A stretch of DNA of 27,722 nt, from positions 1 to 27,722 of IMG/VR virus record IMGVR_UViG_3300045135_001629; one strand, given 5' to 3'. Origin of the DNA: a virus. This document shows positions 5,825 to 27,087 of the stretch, in pieces. Numbering within the stretch: the stretch's first letter is position 1; every line of letters begins with the position of its first letter. Made by a program: the position numbers and the translations under genes. The notes beneath the pieces were generated by a model that saw only the letters and a list, made by a program, of their open reading frames with translations, was not told the origin of the DNA and made no database searches.

Positions 5825-7990
5825 TTATAACCCTGCGGTTGTTGCAATATTGCGATCAAACTCCTGTTGGTTTGTTATATCTTTTCCTACTACAAATGCT
5901 CTCAAAGGCTGCATTTGTTGTTGTGCTACAGAAGCAGCTAACTGTGATTGTGGAGATGCTCCTACAACATTAAAGTCAGGAGCTTCTACTTGTACATTAG
6001 CTCCAGCTCCGCCTCCTACTCCTCCTCCAGAAGGTTTCTTGAATGAGGATATGGTAGTTGCTAATATATTAGCTATAGCTATTCCAGCTCCTATATTGTT
6101 TCTAGCTACTTGAGCTTCACCTAAAGCAATAAAAGGTGCATTAGCAGGTGGAGGGGCTACTGCTGCTGATTGTAATCTTGTAGCTATATTAGATGCTTGT
6201 GTTTTAATAACTACATCAGCTATAGCAGCTCCCTTTTCAACTATTAAAGCAGCTTTCTGCATGGCTTCATTTTCACCAGCTATAGTTCCAAGTAATTGTG
6301 ATATGCCTTGAGCAAAAGCTACGTATTCTAAATTTATTCTAGTCTTTTCATTAGTATTATCTATTTCTTTTTGTAGAGCTAAATCTGATCGTTGATTATC
6401 TAGATTAAATATATCTTGTCGTAGCTGACTTAATTGTAATTCAGAAAAACCTATTTTTTCAGCATTATCTATAAGGCTTTGTGTTGACCCTATATCATTT
6501 TCTACTTGTGCTATTTTAGAATCATAATAAGTTTGATTAGCATCTAAAGAGAATTTAAGCCTATCTATTTCTGTATTCTCAATAGATCTATTTATCTCAT
6601 TAATCGCTCGACCTTCTTTATCTTTAAGGGATATTCTCTTTTCTATAAATGCATTTTCTATAGATAATAAAACATTTTTATGTTTAGTCTCTGCATCTAT
6701 TATAGATTCTTGGAATTCCCTTTCCGCATCAGCTATAAGCTCATTAGCATCTTTTCTGTCTTTTACCTGTTCTTTATATTCTTCTAATCTTTTGGATTCT
6801 CTCTCCTTAAAAACAGCAACTCTTCTGTCAGCTTCCTTTTTAGCAAATTCTTCATCAATATCTAGTTGGTCTTGTGCATTTATAGTCTTTTCTTTTGCTG
6901 CTGCCTGATCAAATTGTAATTGTAGTCTAGATAGGTCTATTAGTTTCTGCTTAAATCTTCTTAATTCAGCCCCAGTATCATCTTCATCTGGGGGAGTGAC
7001 AACAATACCTCTTTTACGAAGTCTAGTTACTTCTTTCTGAAATTCATCAACAGCTGTTCTTGATTCAATAATTCTTTGAGTTAAATCCTTTAGATTTAAT
7101 TCATCTTGTTTAGTAAGCTCTCCCTGACTTTTTTGTAGAATTTTATCTTGTTCTAATCTTAATTTTTTCTGTTTACTTTCCTCTCTAAATATATCAAGTA
7201 GTCTAAAAGCAATTTCTAATCTAGCATCATTAGCAATAGTTTCATCCTTTATTATTTCTGCATTTTTTACTCCTATTTCCCCAAACCTAAACGATATTTC
7301 TTGCAAAGATTTATCTGTTGACTGTAATAAATTAAGACCATTCTTAAAGTTTACTATAAAATTATCAGTAAAACTATCTGCTATTTCTTCCACCTGACCA
7401 GCAAGGAGTTTTCTTTTAGCTATATTTTTAGCCATCTCCTCATTATTCTTTCTTAATGCCTCTGTTTCTTCTTCTATAGCAGTTTTGCTTTTCTTGAACA
7501 GTTTTTCTATTTTAGGAAGGAAAGATATAAGAAGTTGGATTCCAATTAAAATACCCCCAGTACCTAACAGATCTCTACCTAGTGATTTTAGCGTAGCACC
7601 AAATCCTCCAGCGTTTTGTGCTGATATCTGAAATAAAGATACGAGCTGACCCAAGTTGTTTGCCATACCTTGAAACCCATAATTAGCATCAGAAGCTAAT
7701 CTAGATGTCTCTAAAAGTATAGCATTGTTAAGACCACTAGTTGCTTTTGCGTTTTTAGTTGCAGAAGCTACATTCATTTGTGCAGCAGCTTGAGCCTTTA
7801 AGGATGCAATTAAATTTCTTTTTTGTATGGCTGATTTTTCATCAGCTATAATTTGTTCTTTTTGTGCTTGAGTTAGAACAGTTACTTTAGAAGATAAGTT
7901 TTCAACTGAATTAGAAGTTTTATCTATAGTTGCTTTAGCTCCCTTTTCCTTAAATTCAACACTAATTATTATCTTTTTAGTATCTGCCAT
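5825..7990 (-). CDS. Tail tape measure protein
   Basis: A 721-residue protein and one of the two longest in the tail block. Residues 1-100 are a helical N-terminus rich in Ala, Lys and Gln. Around 130-165 a hydrophobic segment (G-I-L-I-G-I-Q-L-L-I-S-F-L) could cross the membrane. Residues about 165-550 are charged coiled coil, then an Ala-rich hydrophobic stretch and a Gly-rich linker (G-G-G-V-G-G-G-A-G). The C-terminal P-D-F-N-V-V-G-A-S segment recurs in tape measure proteins of Bacteroidetes phages. By the usual rule of about 1.5 Angstrom per residue, the tail would be roughly 0.1 micrometre long. Unusually, it follows the tip genes instead of directly following the chaperone. Confidence 0.8.
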   Translation of the reverse strand: MADTKKIIISVEFKEKGAKATIDKTSNSVENLSSKVTVLTQAQKEQIIADEKSAIQKRNLIASLKAQAAAQMNVASATKNAKATSGLNNAILLETSRLASDANYGFQGMANNLGQLVSLFQISAQNAGGFGATLKSLGRDLLGTGGILIGIQLLISFLPKIEKLFKKSKTAIEEETEALRKNNEEMAKNIAKRKLLAGQVEEIADSFTDNFIVNFKNGLNLLQSTDKSLQEISFRFGEIGVKNAEIIKDETIANDARLEIAFRLLDIFREESKQKKLRLEQDKILQKSQGELTKQDELNLKDLTQRIIESRTAVDEFQKEVTRLRKRGIVVTPPDEDDTGAELRRFKQKLIDLSRLQLQFDQAAAKEKTINAQDQLDIDEEFAKKEADRRVAVFKERESKRLEEYKEQVKDRKDANELIADAEREFQESIIDAETKHKNVLLSIENAFIEKRISLKDKEGRAINEINRSIENTEIDRLKFSLDANQTYYDSKIAQVENDIGSTQSLIDNAEKIGFSELQLSQLRQDIFNLDNQRSDLALQKEIDNTNEKTRINLEYVAFAQGISQLLGTIAGENEAMQKAALIVEKGAAIADVVIKTQASNIATRLQSAAVAPPPANAPFIALGEAQVARNNIGAGIAIANILATTISSFKKPSGGGVGGGAGANVQVEAPDFNVVGASPQSQLAASVAQQQMQPLRAFVVGKDITNQQEFDRNIATTAGL

Positions 7991-12949: not shown

Positions 12950-13530
12950 TACTCTTTTCTTATTTCGTAATTATCTCCCTTTTTAATATAACCTGCTTTG
13001 ACTAAAATGTCCTCTACGTTTTCCATCACATCTTGTCCTACGGAGTCTCCAAGAGCATCTAGTTTCCCCATAGAAGCCTCTAGAGCTTCTGATATAAAGT
13101 TAGTGGGTGATGTCCCATAGAAACCAATAGAACGAGCTATAACTCCAGCTAAACCATCTATCTTCTTATCATTCATCGAAACGAACTTACCATTCGCCTC
13201 TCGTAGCTTAACAGGTTTTGCTTTTATCCATTTAGCTATATCTTTTACTGGTGGAGGTCTTTTATCAGCTTTTCTTCCTTTGTCTACAGTTACTCCATAA
13301 GCTGAAGATTCTATATTAAAGGTTATCTTATCCTGTTCTAGTCTTATTGCTTGAGTCTTTACGCTATCTCTCAACTTCCCAGATGAATCAATAGGAGCTG
13401 TTATATTCTTACCTCTAGGATTCATAGATCGTCTCTTTCTAGAACGACCTATTTCTATCTTTAGTAGTTTTACAAGCTCCTGTGAGAAGTTATCTAGATA
13501 GGATTTAGTATTTTTGAATTTGTTAATCAC
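12949..13530 (-). CDS. HK97 gp10-like head-tail joining protein
   Basis: A 193-residue protein with the pattern of the HK97-gp10-like family: a basic N-terminal helix, S-G-K-L-R-D-S-V-K-T-Q, S-S-A-Y-G-V-T-V-D-K-G-R-K-A, P-P-V-K-D-I-A-K-W-I, and the late F-Y-G-T-S-P-T-N-F-I-S-E-A. Members sit at the neck or are minor tail components needed to finish the head-tail joint. The start codon is GTG (13530-13528), overlapping the upstream gene by eight bases; no nearby ATG keeps the N-terminal helix. It pairs with the following tail-completion-like gene, as in many siphoviruses. Confidence 0.7.
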   Translation of the reverse strand: MINKFKNTKSYLDNFSQELVKLLKIEIGRSRKRRSMNPRGKNITAPIDSSGKLRDSVKTQAIRLEQDKITFNIESSAYGVTVDKGRKADKRPPPVKDIAKWIKAKPVKLREANGKFVSMNDKKIDGLAGVIARSIGFYGTSPTNFISEALEASMGKLDALGDSVGQDVMENVEDILVKAGYIKKGDNYEIRKE

Positions 13531-13999
13531 AGTCCTTGAAACTTACATTGTCGTTTCTCATCTCAATACTCATAGTAAGTGACCATCCAGTTAGTAGATT
13601 CTCAAATCTATCTTCAAACTGACTAGCTGTTGGAGTCCCTGATATTTCGTAACCTTCATCATTTAACGAACCTTGACGAACAGAACCTTGAAGCCTATTT
13701 ATAACAGATAACATCGTATTTAATACATCCTGCTTGTTATCCGATAAGTATTGTGGGTTTTCAGTAGTTTGCTTACTTTCCTTGTATTCATCAACTATAT
13801 CCATCGCAATAACATTAATCGTAAAAGTCATTAATCCTTGACCAAATTCAATATCAGATATTATTAAATGGGCTAATGGGAATATTGTTTGCTTTGATAA
13901 ATCCACATCGAATATATCCCCAGAAGTTACTGTATTTATGGAGTTATCTCCTATTAGGGTGGTATATATATTATCTATTAAGTCGTAATACTCTTTCAT
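13523..13999 (-). CDS. Tail completion / terminator-like protein
   Basis: A 158-residue protein beginning with an amphipathic helix (Y-D-L-I-D-N-I-Y-T-T-L) followed by D-I-F-D-V-D-L-S-K-Q-T-I-F-P-L-A-H-L and a strand T-F-T-I-N-V-I-A-M-D-I-V-D-E. This alpha-then-beta layout and the paired placement with a gp10-like gene match tail terminator/completion proteins of siphoviruses, which cap the tail tube. It is coupled to the frameshifted chaperone product through an ATGA overlap at 13996-13999, itself evidence that translation in the -1 frame reaches 13996. Confidence 0.6.
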   Translation of the reverse strand: MKEYYDLIDNIYTTLIGDNSINTVTSGDIFDVDLSKQTIFPLAHLIISDIEFGQGLMTFTINVIAMDIVDEYKESKQTTENPQYLSDNKQDVLNTMLSVINRLQGSVRQGSLNDEGYEISGTPTASQFEDRFENLLTGWSLTMSIEMRNDNVSFKDCD

Positions 14000-14759
14000 C
14001 GTTTCATAGATTTTTTAATCATCCTTGCTTCTAATTCGTTCTTCTCTTTTTCAAATACTAAATACATTAAACACTTGTAAAGGGGTTCTGCTGTAACTTG
14101 GTCAAACTTTGTGATGTCTCCTTTAGCGAGTCCATAAATTGACTGATACCAACCCCATTTTGCGCCAAAGCCTCCTTGAGGTGAGAGGTCTTGGCTCTCC
14201 CTATCTCCATCTCCAAAAAGTTCAGGGAAGCCTTCGATAACTCGATCCCTAAATTGTAAAAAAAAACTACAGCTCCCATCACAACACTTAAAGGCATCTC
14301 CTTCATCAGTTCCTTAACTTCTTCACTCGGACTATAGGGAGCAATAGTATATTTATCTTTCTGACTGAAGTTGACAGGTCTAAACAACACAGCCATCGCC
14401 TTATGGATTTCTTGCCAGTCTCCAATAGATGATTCTACATCAACATACTCCCCTAGACTCATATCATCTAACTTTGGTATAAACCCCATATCAACGTCTA
14501 GGAGCTTAAACCTTCTGGTTAATCCCCATTTCTTCTCGAAGGCTTTCTGTATTATCGTTAATACCTTCTCGAACTCTATAATGGGTATTTGCTCCACCTC
14601 ATTAAGGTCAACATTACAAAATATCTCAATGAGCTTCTTATTTAGAAAATCATTATACTCTTCACCCTTATTCTTATCCGCAACTTTTAAGTATCGTTGA
14701 TACTGACCTAAAGTTATAGACTCCAAAGAGGATGGCACTTCTAATTCTATTTTCTTCAT
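13996..14759 (-). CDS. Long tail assembly chaperone via -1 frameshift (gpGT-like)
   Basis: Predicted product of a programmed -1 ribosomal frameshift, written as complement(join(13996..14259,14259..14759)), 254 residues. Zero-frame codons 1-167 end at TTT 14261-14259 within the T9 run. After slipping back one base the ribosome reads TTA 14259-14257 and continues for 87 codons to TGA 13998-13996. The extension contains V-I-E-G-F-P-E-L-F-G-D-G, A-K-W-G-W-Y-Q-S-I-Y-G-L, G-D-I-T-K-F-D and a helical F-E-K-E-K-N-E-L-E-A-R tail, strongly protein-like. No ATG, GTG or TTG start lies in this frame between its upstream TAA and the ATG at 14067-14065. In lambda and many siphoviruses the same trick makes gpGT from gpG to load tail subunits on the tape measure. 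The frameshift itself is inferred. Confidence 0.75.
14067..14759 (-). CDS. Tail assembly chaperone, short form (gpG-like)
   Basis: The zero-frame product has 230 residues. The first two thirds are helical with L-G-Q-Y-Q-R-Y-L, M-S-L-G-E-Y-V-D-V-E and A-M-A-V-L-F-R-P-V patterns that I know from tail-region proteins of Bacteroidetes phages. The slippery site lies at codons 165-167. The last 63 codons (14258-14067) overlap the -1 frame extension and still read as plausible helical protein with an N-G-V-G-I-S-Q-F-M segment. The stop TAA (14069-14067) overlaps ATG 14067-14065 of the other frame. The identification rests on the frameshift design and on being the first gene of the tail block. Confidence 0.7.
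   Translation of the reverse strand: MKKIELEVPSSLESITLGQYQRYLKVADKNKGEEYNDFLNKKLIEIFCNVDLNEVEQIPIIEFEKVLTIIQKAFEKKWGLTRRFKLLDVDMGFIPKLDDMSLGEYVDVESSIGDWQEIHKAMAVLFRPVNFSQKDKYTIAPYSPSEEVKELMKEMPLSVVMGAVVFFYNLGIELSKASLNFLEMEIGRAKTSHLKEALAQNGVGISQFMDSLKETSQSLTKLQQNPFTSV
14258..14266 (-). promoter_or_regulatory. T9 slippery site for -1 frameshifting
   Basis: On the coding strand codons 165-168 read GTT TTT TTT TAC, so T-TTT-TTT (14265-14259) fits the X-XXY-YYZ slippery rule in frame. No other homopolymer of this length was noticed in this gene. Downstream the -1 frame is open to 13996. Confidence 0.75.
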
Positions 14760-14782
14760 ATTTAAAGTAATTACATTCTAAA

Positions 14783-14815
14783 ATATTGTATCTAATCTTT
14801 TACAAGTGTCATAAC
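14783..14815 (-). promoter_or_regulatory. Candidate promoter of the virion operon
   Basis: On the minus strand TATGACACTTGTAAAA (14814-14799) matches the recurring element TTTGGCACTTCTAAAA seen at the ERF promoter in most positions. TACAATAT (14790-14783) lies where the -7 box is expected, although it is a poor TAnnTTTG match. It is 24 bases upstream of the chaperone ATG and would drive the whole tail-head block. Confidence 0.45.
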
Positions 14816-14827
14816 GGCAGAGAGATA

Positions 14828-14899
14828 TATATAGTTATACTGTATATAGTTACTCATATTACTGTATATAGTTATACTACCTTTAAATAAAACTATATA
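14828..14899. repeat. AT-rich TATATAGTTA repeats, probable operator region
   Basis: TATATAGTTA occurs three times (14828-14837, 14843-14852, 14865-14874), the last two inside an exact 14-base repeat ACTGTATATAGTTA (14839-14852 and 14861-14874). An inverted copy AACTATATA follows at 14891-14899, then TGCC-N5-GGCA at about 14911. The order AACTATATA...TGCC-N5-GGCAG recurs upstream of the primase gene (25870-25908). Binding by a phage regulator, or an origin-like unwinding region, would both fit. Confidence 0.55.
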
Positions 14900-14933
14900 T
14901 TATATGTGTGCCATTTCGGCAGTTCTAAACAGT

Positions 14934-15164
14934 TTATGTGCTGTATTTCAGATACATATGGCAATATAGCTCCCATATTTTAGTATCTACCTCATCCTTC
15001 TTGTATTTCTTTTCGCTTGTAGTAATATTTCCGTTGTTATTTACCTCCACAGCATATAGTTTATCAGTACTCTTCGCTGGGAGGCAATATATAGTAATGC
15101 CATTCTCAACACACCATTGGAACGCATCGTACTGCATCGTATCAAACATACCTATTAGATTCAC
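14934..15164 (-). CDS. Small phage protein of unknown function, 76 aa
   Basis: A 76-residue hydrophilic protein with M-F-D-T-M-Q-Y-D-A-F-Q-W-C-V-E-N-G-I-T-I-Y near the start, a charged middle (V-E-V-N-N-N-G-N-I-T-T), and K-I-W-E-L-Y-C-H-M-Y at the end. I recall small Bacteroidetes phage proteins with the same W-C-x-E-N-x-I...K-x-D-E...I-W-x-L-Y layout, all uncharacterised. ATGs at residues 6 and 10 are alternative starts. It stands alone in the repeat-rich region. A frame of almost the same length on the plus strand is its hydrophobic antisense shadow. Confidence 0.6.
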   Translation of the reverse strand: MNLIGMFDTMQYDAFQWCVENGITIYCLPAKSTDKLYAVEVNNNGNITTSEKKYKKDEVDTKIWELYCHMYLKYST

Positions 15165-15338
15165 AATATAAATATAAGAGATATCATCGATAGTACCGAA
15201 TTATTTCAAAAAGAATATAATATCTCTAATAAAAAATATCCAGTTTAAGAATAAACGATGATAACGATTATAACGATGATATAGTACTATTGAATTCACA
15301 TTTACCCCTATTAGATTCACAAGGGTATTAAATTCACA
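15153..15338. repeat. TATTGAATTCACA repeats, cluster 1
   Basis: Four copies of a 13-base unit are present: 15153-15165 and 15309-15321 (TATTAGATTCACA), 15288-15300 (TATTGAATTCACA) and 15326-15338 (TATTAAATTCACA). The last three are spaced 21 and 17 bases apart with CCC or GGG between them. The core TGAATTCA is palindromic. A second cluster lies at 16662-16735. The leftmost copy ends at the start codon region of the 76-residue gene. Confidence 0.6.
15251..15290. repeat. Three ATAACGAT iteron-like repeats plus palindrome
   Basis: ATAAACGATG (15251-15260), ATAACGATT (15261-15269) and ATAACGATG (15270-15278) are tandem, followed by ATATAGTACTAT (15279-15290). The last matches 12 of the 14 bases of the palindrome ATATAGTACTATAT before the primase gene (25839-25852). 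Tandem short repeats beside an AT-rich palindrome resemble iterons or operator arrays. Confidence 0.5.
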
Positions 15339-15411
15339 TTGGCAGTTCTAAAGTCAATATGTAGACAGAGTAGGTTAATTAGTATTGCCACCTTGCTTTC
15401 CGTCAGAGTCC

Positions 15412-15542
15412 ATTTAAACGCTTTAAATTGTCGCTCTGGTATGTAGATACCAAATAAATTAGAAACGAGCTGAAAAGGGGCTTAAAATCGCTCTACGGGG
15501 TTATTTAAAAGACGATCTTACCTTTTTAAACTCATTTCTAAT
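15412..15542 (-). other. Possible structured RNA or cruciform element
   Basis: Three inverted repeats stand side by side: ATTTAAA-CGC-TTTAAAT (15412-15428), TGGTAT-GTAG-ATACCA (15437-15452), and a 12-base pair of arms 15458-15469 / 15531-15542 with one mismatch that becomes a G.U pair only in minus-strand RNA. A 6-bp AAAAGG/CCTTTT pairing fits inside the long arm. No promoter was found for such a transcript, so DNA-level roles are equally possible. Confidence 0.3.
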
Positions 15543-15574
15543 GATTATCAAGCAATTACATAAAACAAGGCAAT

Positions 15575-15599
15575 AAAAAAGCCCCCTAAAAAGGAGGCT
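15575..15599 (-). terminator. Intrinsic terminator of the small-gene cassette
   Basis: Minus-strand RNA forms AGCCUCC/GGGGGCU (15599-15593 with 15586-15580, one G.U pair) with a 6-base loop, followed by T6 (15580-15575). It lies about 35 bases past the stop of the 58-residue gene and closes the cassette that starts at the 16543-16575 promoter. Confidence 0.8.
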
Positions 15600-15632
15600 A
15601 ATCTTTAAATTAACTTTAATTTATTTTATTTA

Positions 15633-15809
15633 TTACGTTCCTACTTCATCAATATAACGCTGCAAAAGGTGGTTAACTATTAATTCATTGTGTTTTATGT
15701 TGTGATATTGTTGCCCAAAATAAAGACAAGCATCTATCTTTAAGCGTTCAATTTTTCGCTGTCGTTTTGCTTTTTTTAAATTATGCTCAAATTGTATTCT
15801 GTTGCTCAT
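15633..15809 (-). CDS. Small basic protein, last gene of cassette, 58 aa
   Basis: A 58-codon frame from ATG 15809-15807 to TAA 15635-15633. The first half is very basic and helical (N-L-K-K-A-K-R-Q-R-K-I-E-R-L-K-I), the second amphipathic (N-E-L-I-V-N-H-L-L-Q-R-Y-I-D). The start lies five bases below the stop of the 95-residue gene and the stop is followed by a terminator, so it fits the operon. A basic helix followed by an amphipathic helix could bind nucleic acid or dimerise, but no known domain is recognised. Confidence 0.65.
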   Translation of the reverse strand: MSNRIQFEHNLKKAKRQRKIERLKIDACLYFGQQYHNIKHNELIVNHLLQRYIDEVGT

Positions 15810-15813
15810 GTTA

Positions 15814-16101
15814 TTATTTGTTTAGGTTTCTAGTTTTATAAGTGCCGTTTTTTATACGTTCCTCAATTTCTTTTGAGCTGATATTAACCCCTAGAAATTG
15901 CTTTAAATAGCGGAGTGTAGTTCTGGAGTAATTCCAATAATAAGGGTCTAAAATTACTTTTCCTAAAAAGCCTCTTTCCTTTTTGGCAATTGTTGAGCCG
16001 TAGCTCTGGAAAATGTAGTATTTATCCGTTTCAATTTCGTACTGATTTGCAACAGGGTTTCCGCTTCTGGGGCTTTCTAAATTGTAAACTTTGATTTTCA
16101 T
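15814..16101 (-). CDS. Small cassette protein with SGNPVANQ motif, 95 aa
   Basis: A 95-residue protein with the order S-P-R-S-G-N-P-V-A-N-Q-Y-E-I, Y-Y-I-F-Q-S-Y-G-S-T-I-A, a hydrophobic/aromatic V-I-L-D-P-Y-Y-W-N-Y-S, then a helix L-R-Y-L-K-Q-F-L-G and a charged end. I recall this layout (NPVANQ, FQSY, LDP, YS-T, FL) from small uncharacterised phage and plasmid proteins, which suggests a conserved family. No catalytic motif is evident. The ATG overlaps the upstream stop (ATGA, 16098-16101). Confidence 0.65.
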   Translation of the reverse strand: MKIKVYNLESPRSGNPVANQYEIETDKYYIFQSYGSTIAKKERGFLGKVILDPYYWNYSRTTLRYLKQFLGVNISSKEIEERIKNGTYKTRNLNK

Positions 16102-16376
16102 TGTTTTATTTGTATTTCATTATCTTCTAAAATTTTGTCTGCGATGTATTCCTCAATCTCATTAAATATATAAGAATCTGGATTTAGTTTTAAATATTGC
16201 AGTTGATCCTCACACAATAAATATTGTTCTAAAGTTTGATATATTTCTTTATTATTTAATATGTGTCCTATTAATTGTATTAATAAGTCCCTTGCCTCAA
16301 CTGGGAGCGTTTTTTCTCCCAAAATACCAAGAGGATCGTTATTAAATATTTTGTTTAATGTTTCTTGTTTTTCCAT
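16098..16376 (-). CDS. Helical cassette protein of unknown function, 92 aa
   Basis: I start it at ATG 16376-16374 (MEKQETLNKIFNND), four bases after the stop of the small membrane protein gene. A longer reading from TTG 16466 would overlap that gene almost completely. The 92-residue product is acidic and helical: A-R-D-L-L-I-Q-L-I-G-H-I-L, then L-E-Q-Y-L-L-C-E-D-Q-L-Q-Y-L, then Y-I-A-D-K-I-L-E-D-N. No family is recognised. It lies between a membrane peptide and the SGNPVANQ protein in a self-contained transcription unit. Confidence 0.6.
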   Translation of the reverse strand: MEKQETLNKIFNNDPLGILGEKTLPVEARDLLIQLIGHILNNKEIYQTLEQYLLCEDQLQYLKLNPDSYIFNEIEEYIADKILEDNEIQIKQ

Positions 16377-16380
16377 TGTT

Positions 16381-16491
16381 TTAAGCGTTTTTAATGACTT
16401 GAATAAATAACCAAGCAAAGAAAAGGACTCCGAAAACTTTTGTTGCTTTTCTGCTAAAATTGTCAATTAATGTAATAATTCTTTTTTCCAT
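16381..16491 (-). CDS. Single-span membrane peptide, 36 aa, first cassette gene
   Basis: A 36-codon frame from ATG 16491-16489 to TAA 16383-16381. A basic N-terminus (M-E-K-R-I-I-T-L-I-D-N-F-S-R-K) is followed by one hydrophobic segment with aromatic residues (V-F-G-V-L-F-F-A-W-L-F-I-Q-V-I) and a short basic tail, so it is probably an inner-membrane peptide with the N-terminus inside. The ATG sits in the same AAATACGATG context as another promoter-proximal gene here (17397). As the first gene after the promoter it may be the most expressed. Superinfection exclusion or host-envelope effects are possible but unproven. Confidence 0.65.
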   Translation of the reverse strand: MEKRIITLIDNFSRKATKVFGVLFFAWLFIQVIKNA

Positions 16492-16521
16492 CGTATTTAA
16501 GTTTTAATTAATATTTGTTTT

Positions 16522-16539
16522 TGTGTAATTGTTTACACA
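16522..16539. promoter_or_regulatory. Operator-like inverted repeat at the cassette promoter
   Basis: TGTGTAA-TTGT-TTACACA, perfect 7-base arms around four bases, begins three bases past the -7 box, so it covers the expected start of transcription. A repressor bound here would block the promoter. The site was not seen elsewhere in the window, hinting at a host or unlinked regulator. Confidence 0.6.
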
Positions 16540-16542
16540 TGA

Positions 16543-16575
16543 CAAATATAAGGCATAATTTTTTTTCTTATCAAA
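16543..16575 (-). promoter_or_regulatory. Promoter of the moron-like cassette
   Basis: On the minus strand TTTG (16575-16572), 21 bases, then TATATTTG (16550-16543), a full match to the Bacteroidetes -33/-7 consensus. The spacer contains an A8 run. Unlike the other promoters here it lacks the GGCAGTTCTAAAA extension, so it may be read by the host sigma factor alone. Confidence 0.7.
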
Positions 16576-16631
16576 TATTTTTGTGAAAAACTTGTTAATT
16601 TATATTTAGTCTAAATAAGCATAAAGCCAAT

Positions 16632-16654
16632 AAAAAAAGGGCTTCACAGCCCTT
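16632..16654 (-). terminator. Intrinsic terminator of the 17.4-16.7 kb unit
   Basis: On the minus strand AAGGGCT-GTGA-AGCCCTT (16654-16637), a perfect 7-bp stem, followed by T7 (16638-16632). It ends the unit of four small genes that starts at the 17421-17453 promoter. Confidence 0.85.
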
Positions 16655-16661
16655 CATACCC

Positions 16662-16735
16662 TATTGAATTTATGGGGGTATTGAATTCACAACCCTATTG
16701 AATTTAAAATTATTCTATAGTGTATTGAATTGCTT
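16662..16735. repeat. TATTGAATTCACA repeats, cluster 2
   Basis: Units at 16662-16674, 16679-16691 and 16696-16708 are spaced exactly 17 bases apart, with GGGG or CCC between them, and a fourth partial copy lies at 16723-16731. The middle unit is identical to the 15288-15300 copy. The cluster overlaps the end of the 36-residue Cys-rich gene and abuts a terminator. Confidence 0.6.
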
Positions 16736-16820
16736 CACAATGCTCGTAACACTCCGAGCAAATTTCTGTTTCAATCGGCACGAGTGGCGCACCGCAACAA
16801 TGACTAACTACTTGTTCCAT
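16710..16820 (-). CDS. Tiny zinc-ribbon-like protein, 36 aa
   Basis: A 36-codon frame from ATG 16820-16818 to TAA 16712-16710. The sequence includes H-C-C-G-A-P-L-V-P and I-C-S-E-C-Y-E-H-C, two Cys pairs separated by about a dozen residues, as expected for a zinc ribbon/knuckle. I know small phage proteins with this C-C-G-A-P-L-x-P...I-C-x-x-C pattern, none with a described function. It overlaps the upstream gene by 17 bases. The repeats of cluster 2 fall at its 3' end. Confidence 0.7.
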   Translation of the reverse strand: MEQVVSHCCGAPLVPIETEICSECYEHCEAIQYTIE

Positions 16821-16980
16821 TTTCTAATTGTTTTAATACTTGTTTGTCAATCTTAACTAACAAATCACTATACTCCTTTGTAGAAAGGTTATAGGTCTTT
16901 CTCTTGCCAATAGTCTGGGCTATGCAAGTCTCTAATAGGTGGAGTTCCTCTGGATTCAGTTTGAACTTATACTTATTCAT
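16804..16980 (-). CDS. Small helical protein, 58 aa
   Basis: A 58-codon frame, ATG 16980-16978 to TAG 16806-16804. Sequence layout: K-F-K-L-N-P-E-E-L-H-L-L-E-T-C-I, a basic loop (G-K-R-K-T-Y-N-L-S), then Y-S-D-L-L-V-K-I-D-K-Q-V-L-K-Q-L. It reads as two helices with a short basic linker. Both ends overlap neighbours (8 and 17 bases), as elsewhere in this tightly packed genome. No family is recognised. Confidence 0.6.
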   Translation of the reverse strand: MNKYKFKLNPEELHLLETCIAQTIGKRKTYNLSTKEYSDLLVKIDKQVLKQLENGTSS

Positions 16981-17137
16981 CTGTATCTAATTTATTGTAA
17001 AGCTCCTCCATCTCATCTACAAAACTCCAGCTCTCTGCTCTTATTAATTCTGTTTTGAAATCCCATACTAACTTCATAAGTACATCTATCTCATCGCTTG
17101 TTAGTGGTATGGAAACTGTTTTATTGTCTATTGCCAT
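16973..17137 (-). CDS. Small acidic helical protein, 54 aa
   Basis: A 54-codon frame, ATG 17137-17135 to TAA 16975-16973, two bases below the upstream stop (TAATTATG, an arrangement also used between ERF and the SSB-like gene). Sequence: V-S-I-P-L-T-S-D-E-I-D-V-L-M-K-L-V-W-D-F, then an acidic E-M-E-E-L-Y-N-K-L-D helix. The start I-P-L-T-x-x-E resembles that of the neighbouring 58-residue protein (L-N-P-E-E-L), which may hint at an old duplication. Function unknown. Confidence 0.6.
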   Translation of the reverse strand: MAIDNKTVSIPLTSDEIDVLMKLVWDFKTELIRAESWSFVDEMEELYNKLDTDE

Positions 17138-17139
17138 AA

Positions 17140-17397
17140 TTACACTCTTTGATCTAAATCCTTCTTTATATAGTCTGCTATACCTTTTAAAGTTTCTTTA
17201 TCAACCCAATGGAGGAACTGATAAGGGAGAAAGTTTAAACAATATTCGTAGCCATCATAATCTTCAACAGTTATAGTGAAAAAGGGATGGTCATGGTCTT
17301 TACCCTCTTTAGTTTTAGTCTTTTGAGGGTAACATTGATGGATAATGTCTTTTACTTCTATCCAAGTACTTTTGTTTTCTTCGTCTTTAATTGTCAT
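17140..17397 (-). CDS. Small phage protein of unknown function, 85 aa
   Basis: Started at ATG 17397-17395 in the context AAATACGATG. A longer reading from TTG 17424 would include the promoter -7 box and is rejected. The 85-residue product has W-I-E-V-K-D-I-I-H-Q-C-Y-P, a charged His/Lys stretch (D-H-D-H-P-F-F-T-I), then Y-C-L-N-F-L-P-Y-Q-F-L-H-W-V-D and a charged helical tail. No known domain is recognised. It is the first gene of a four-gene unit with its own promoter and terminator. Confidence 0.6.
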   Translation of the reverse strand: MTIKDEENKSTWIEVKDIIHQCYPQKTKTKEGKDHDHPFFTITVEDYDGYEYCLNFLPYQFLHWVDKETLKGIADYIKKDLDQRV

Positions 17398-17420
17398 CGT
17401 ATTTGATTTAAAATTATGTT

Positions 17421-17453
17421 GCAATATAATAACAATATTTTAGAACTGCCAAA
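17421..17453 (-). promoter_or_regulatory. Promoter with extended -33 element
   Basis: Minus strand: TTTGGCAGTTCTAAAA (17453-17438) then, 21 bases after TTTG, TATATTGC (17428-17421), an imperfect TAnnTTTG. The element TTTGGCAGTTCTAAAA is nearly identical to that of the ERF promoter. The predicted leader to ATG 17397 is about 20 bases. Confidence 0.6.
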
Positions 17454-17461
17454 TAAATAAC

Positions 17462-17498
17462 AAAAAAAAGAGACAAATATTTCTAAATGCCTCTCTTT
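17462..17498 (-). terminator. Intrinsic terminator after terminase
   Basis: Minus strand: AAAGAGA (17498-17492) pairs with TCTCTTT (17473-17467) around an 18-base loop, with T8 at 17469-17462. It lies about 50 bases past the large terminase stop, only nine bases before the next promoter. The long loop makes it weaker than the others. Confidence 0.65.
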
Positions 17499-17548
17499 CA
17501 ATTAACTAAAAAAAATCAAACAAAGATTATTTCTACAATATACAAAAA

Positions 17549-21659: not shown

Positions 21660-21690
21660 CAAAGATATAACAATTTTTGAACTGACAAAA
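21660..21690 (-). promoter_or_regulatory. Promoter of the exonuclease-terminase operon
   Basis: Minus strand: TTTTGTCAGTTCAAAA (21690-21675), a variant of the recurring -33 element, 18 bases after TTTG then TATCTTTG (21667-21660), a full TAnnTTTG match. The ATG follows 14 bases later (21645). It lies directly beyond the stop of the 51-residue gene. Confidence 0.65.
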
Positions 21691-27055: not shown

Positions 27056-27087
27056 CAAATATACACTTAATTTTAGAAGTGCCAAAA
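27056..27087 (-). promoter_or_regulatory. Strong promoter of the ERF operon, near-leaderless
   Basis: Minus strand: TTTTTGGCACTTCTAAAA (27087-27070), 19 bases after TTTG then TATATTTG (27063-27056), a full consensus match. Only five bases separate the box from the ERF ATG, less than or about equal to the expected distance to the start of transcription. The TTTTT part is shared with the terminator tail just upstream. Confidence 0.75.

Follow-up and report, generated by a model that had tools for sequence, protein, structure and literature searches.

Introduction

The tail assembly chaperones gpG and gpGT of phage lambda are made by a ribosomal -1 frameshift (PMC5009743), and the published coordinates of the SPP1 pair 17.5/17.5*, with 173 aa of which 112 are shared, imply that about 61 codons of the zero frame overlap (PMC6316719). 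Papers on frameshifting in tail genes of Flavobacterium phages were not found in the open-access literature.

Transcriptional slippage genes, such as mxiE and dnaX of some species, change frame on T9 or A9 runs. Slippage of the E. coli RNA polymerase occurs on T runs of 7 or more, with T preferred (PMC6260861). The locus described here lies in the viral record IMGVR_UViG_3300045135_001629, of which the whole stretch of 27,722 nucleotides that was analysed is called the window, and for which a first-pass annotation had proposed a programmed -1 frameshift at a T9 run of a tail assembly chaperone gene with a long dual-coded tail.

Results

Anatomy of the T9 locus

The zero-frame ORF (14067..14759, minus strand) encodes 230 aa, a putative gpG-like short product, whose residues 6-175 match phrog_32199 at 5.8e-18. 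The T9 run at 14258..14266 of the same strand, the predicted slip site, is read in this ORF as GTT TTT TTT TAC and contains the in-phase heptamer T_TTT_TTT at 14265-14259, as the first-pass annotation had stated. The -1 frame, whose last upstream stop is a TAA at about 14316-14314 and which has no upstream start codon in the window, is open down to a TGA at 13998-13996. The resulting extension (13996..14265, minus strand), a candidate C-terminus of a long product, has 89 codons plus TGA including the two slip-site Phe codons, and hence the 87 codons counted earlier beyond them; it carries a KWGWY...FEKEK motif and translates as FFLQFRDRVIEGFPELFGDGDRESQDLSPQGGFGAKWGWYQSIYGLAKGDITKFDQVTAEPLYKCLMYLVFEKEKNELEARMIKKSMKR. 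Residues 1-167 are common to the zero-frame product and the predicted frameshift product. An ATG situated 23 codons before the end of the -1 frame is indeed the first, but not the only one as had been claimed, since ATGs occur at codons 67, 83 and 87. Also in agreement with the first-pass annotation, the -1 frame ORF is missing from the ordinary ORF list of the window.

The zero frame, for which a continuation of 63 codons had been reported, runs on past T9 for about 62 codons (65 in the comparison with lambda, P2 and HK97), and ~190 bases are open in both frames, with the putative dual-coded stretch at 14070..14257 on the minus strand. The stop of the -1 frame overlaps as ATGA the ATG of the next gene (13523..13999, minus strand; 158 aa, phrog_30964, unknown function), as had been seen at first reading, and this arrangement is present in 146 of the 166 loci having an identified next gene. 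Only shifted ribosomes would terminate at this stop, and the shift might thus also influence translation of the next gene.

Conservation of the T9 run and of both frames

Clear named relatives obtained by tblastn are only the Nonlabens phages P12024L and P12024S, and searches of IMG/VR gave hundreds more. The first 159 sequences compared, with the window included, all match both the zero-frame and the -1 queries in equal relative phase, and further searches enlarged this set to 381 loci, 284 of them distinct. A search of genome contigs added one relative on a Bacteroidetes MAG contig, which leaves the host unfixed. Among the distinct loci the run at the equivalent place is T9 in 275 and T10 in seven, and T9 by inspection in the last two, with T_TTT_TTT in phase in all 284. 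One apparent exception (L234) proved to be a contig that breaks off within the gene but contains T9, while in another locus (L124) T9 is present and the -1 frame meets a stop before the W motif, due either to mutation or to error; otherwise both frames are open in the related loci. Examination of relatives for loss of the slippery run or of one frame, as had been proposed, hence revealed that T9 and both frames are kept, and the programmed -1 shift at T9 is supported by this conservation.

The -1 extension has 82-95 codons across relatives, and the zero-frame tail has 9-92 codons from the slip heptamer, mostly 48-92, with 18-27 in P12024-type phages. In 75 representatives neither the T's of the run nor the TTTA at +12 to +15 vary, and the flanking coding sequence, 69,909 bases (69.9 kb) in all, is devoid of any other T run of at least 7. 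The extension had been described as resembling a conserved protein, which is borne out by its invariant residues F1, F2, L3, F5, F33, W37, Y40 and L69, with conservation beginning at the slip codons and FFL..F invariant from the slip site onwards. In 169 of 178 loci the -1 frame has no ATG ahead of the W motif, which argues against a separate start.

As regards possible stimulators, downstream RNA structure showed nothing unusual in pseudoknot-free folding (mean z -0.3 to 0.1), and a purine-rich, Shine-Dalgarno-like motif upstream of the slip site is present in few loci.

Selection in both frames

When one protein was kept, its codons resampled and the other frame scored for staying open, the mean probability of reaching the observed length was 0.014 for the zero frame with the -1 protein kept and 0.007 for the -1 frame with the zero-frame protein kept, and the third frame acquired 6.2 stops on average. 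Both frames are thus open far beyond chance.

Fourfold third positions of -1 codons coincide with second positions of zero-frame codons, and the synonymous-site comparison suggested by the first-pass annotation could be carried out on 71 independent pairs. The difference at such sites is 0.096 in the overlap, against 0.310 upstream (0.10 and 0.31 when rounded); the part of the extension past the overlap gives 0.238 and the next gene 0.298. With the first ten codons left out the overlap value is 0.105. It is then lower than upstream for 66 of the 71 pairs (sign p 1e-14), and every fourfold amino acid shows the drop. Sites that are unable to create a zero-frame stop give 0.104, hence a likewise threefold suppression, and stop avoidance is therefore not its cause. 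Constraint is highest near the slip site and weaker towards the end of the overlap, and beyond codon 70 members with long tails are barely more constrained than short-tailed ones at equal columns, indicating that the proximal zero-frame tail is under selection and that its distal part is looser. Genuine dual coding of ~190 bases, with selection acting on both frames, is supported by the fourfold-site suppression together with the 284 distinct loci, in line with the dual-coded tail proposed initially.

Putative function of the two products

By its anatomy, with short and long putative products having one N-terminus and a -1 shift, the locus has a chaperone-type architecture, and its neighbourhood is a morphogenesis module with genes for terminase, portal and head protease. 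A 721-aa ORF at 5825-7990 with a single TM-like stretch likely encodes the tape measure protein; five genes lie between it and the frameshift gene, which is thus not directly upstream, unlike its counterparts in lambda, P2 and HK97, a point against the chaperone role. The common part belongs to phrog_32199 and, in some members, the extension to phrog_38404, both being families of unknown function, and Pfam and PHROGs searches named no function for either part, with Phage_TAC_7 touched by only one member (E 0.17). In the AlphaFold model the domain common to both products is confident (overall pLDDT 82), and the zero-frame tail forms long helices of lower confidence (about 59-67 per block). Fold searches against PDB retrieved only generic helical bundles, and nothing for the extension, whose model is weak (pLDDT 68). 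Foldseek against viral models retrieved many uncharacterised proteins and one named tail assembly chaperone as a weak match (E 0.23).

From the position in the morphogenesis module, this viral-model match and the analogy with lambda gpG/gpGT (PMC5009743), a pair of gpG/gpGT-type tail assembly chaperones appears quite likely. The designation given in the first-pass annotation therefore fits anatomy and gene position, but is not accompanied by a firm family or fold match, and is one that we infer. By the same analogy, the tape measure protein would be bound through the common part, and recruitment of the tail tube protein would fall to the extension.

Other features of the window

About 2.8 kb (14760-17548) with few small ORFs separate the terminase from the frameshift gene and contain two terminator-like hairpins, at 15599-15580 and 16655-16636; in P12024, unlike in the window, the two genes are adjacent. 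The motif TTGGCA[C/G]TTCTAAAAT occurs with 0-2 mismatches outside main ORFs at 17437-17452, 27070-27085 and 21673-21688 on the minus strand and at 15339-15354 on the plus strand, both perfect copies lying a short way after a T8 or T9 run. With three mismatches allowed, nine matches are found against 2.8 expected, and the motif may be a phage promoter element.

Discussion

Proposed mechanism

Considered as a whole, the locus is probably best explained by two products from one start, generated by a -1 slip at T9 and forming a tail assembly chaperone pair. Most ribosomes would pass T9 in the zero frame and make the 230-aa protein, while a minority would slip back by one base on T_TTT_TTT, with two Phe-tRNAs re-pairing with identical UUU codons, giving a product of ~256 aa composed of the 167 common residues and the -1 frame C-terminus. 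In most members the zero frame is not closed soon after the slip site but continues for 48-92 codons, encoding a C-terminal end of its own that is under weaker constraint and probably helical, and the slip site would hence select between two C-terminal ends. The layout of the locus, its conservation and the selection on both frames are established here, while the occurrence of slippage, its rate, the ribosome as its agent and the chaperone role are what we infer.

Alternative explanations

Two simpler accounts of the second frame can be set against this. If the -1 frame were an independent gene that has a start of its own, or if there were just one gene and T9 reflected an indel from sequencing or assembly, the annotation of the P12024L second half as a separate gene would be understandable, and homopolymers are known to be error-prone in some sequencing methods. 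Such an account is highly improbable, given the recurrence of T9 with both frames across 284 distinct loci as well as two isolated phages, the rarity of an ATG before the W motif and the invariant FFL..F starting at the slip site; moreover, an indel would not leave the zero frame open for 48-92 codons. A one-base error at T9, named in the first-pass annotation as the observation that would overturn it, fails since T9 is present in every related phage, and an assembly or sequencing artefact at the homopolymer is thereby ruled out. It could also be argued that the zero-frame tail is a passenger merely kept open, and that past the slip the -1 extension is the one part of importance. Several features would suit this explanation: the zero-frame stop moves freely (9-92 codons past the slip, 18-27 among P12024-type phages), constraint declines with distance, and long-tailed members gain little constraint past codon 70. 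However, fourfold sites that cannot make a zero-frame stop are still suppressed threefold, and the suppression persists without the first ten codons and in nearly all pairs. As stop avoidance alone would not suppress such sites, the passenger explanation is disfavoured and seems rather improbable, although less so than a separate gene or an indel.

A stronger challenge concerns the agent of the slip, since the T9 locus poses the question whether an invariant T9 serves the ribosome or the RNA polymerase. RNA polymerase could stutter on the A9 template and add one U, and U10 mRNAs would then be read normally in the -1 frame, with products and their roles unchanged. A homopolymer of at least 8-9 bases where the frame changes, as in transcriptional slippage genes, is present throughout as T9 or T10 and never falls below nine, within the range of T runs of at least 7 on which the E. 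coli RNA polymerase slips (PMC6260861), and no RNA stimulator was detected. In addition, a C at the final heptamer position would leave both proteins unchanged (Phe TTC; Leu CTA/CTG), but this base is T in 75 of 75 representatives, while TTC makes up 32% of Phe codons nearby; a naive guide to such invariance is 0.677^27 = 3e-5, with 27 groups at 72% identity treated as independent. A terminal C is no obvious bar to ribosomal slippage either, as SPP1 is predicted to slip on UUUUUUC (PMC6316719). On the other hand, UUU may simply be slipperier than UUC, and the flanking Ts at both ends of T9 occupy positions at which any substitution is non-synonymous in one or both frames, and protein constraint can therefore account for part of the run. 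Because known tail chaperone pairs use the ribosome, ribosomal slippage is considered likelier than RNA-polymerase slippage. Polymerase slippage is thus a less likely possibility, though one to be taken more seriously than the passenger tail, and the same standing is given to a chaperone pair whose ratio would be set by RNA-polymerase slippage on the invariant T9, with two alternative C-terminal domains both under selection.

Implications

A frameshift gene can be named in a large marine group of viruses with kinship to flavobacterial phages, in which the two halves of the gene are listed as hypothetical proteins with no link between them (P12024L is an example) or the second half is missed. 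Hundreds of natural variants with two C-terminal ends on ~190 bases make it possible to study what dual coding costs and how the zero-frame stop drifts.

Comparison with known systems

The genes for lambda gpG/gpGT, P2 E/E+E' and HK97 gp13/gp14 are alike to the T9 gene in having an in-phase -1 slippery heptamer in the morphogenesis region and two products with one N-terminus, the longer one arising via the shift, which is predicted in the present case. They differ in lying directly before the tape measure gene and in that the zero frame after the slip has 7 codons in lambda, 8 in P2 and at most 16 remaining in HK97, compared with 65 in the T9 gene, and no sequence relation to the latter is detectable. 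Closer in layout are gp17.5/gp17.5* of SPP1, for which -1 slippage at a T-rich heptamer (UUUUUUC) is predicted and an overlap of ~61 codons implied (PMC6316719), although that site ends in C and is not T9, and the likeness considered is one of architecture. The long dual-coded tail, considered unusual in the first-pass annotation, is so with respect to lambda, P2 and HK97, but given SPP1 it is not unprecedented, hence unusual rather than new. Direct homologues are found in gp40/gp41 and gp38/gp39 of P12024L and P12024S with 28-33% identity, T9 in equal phase and a -1 extension of 83 codons; their zero-frame tail has only 27 codons, and in the annotation the large terminase is followed by two separate hypothetical proteins in place of a frameshift pair. 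With transcriptional slippage genes such as mxiE and dnaX the locus shares a conserved 9-base homopolymer at the point of frame change, but its heptamer fits ribosomal slippage too. To these systems the T9 locus adds a family that is large and unannotated, a T9 run that does not vary, and evidence for selection in both frames.
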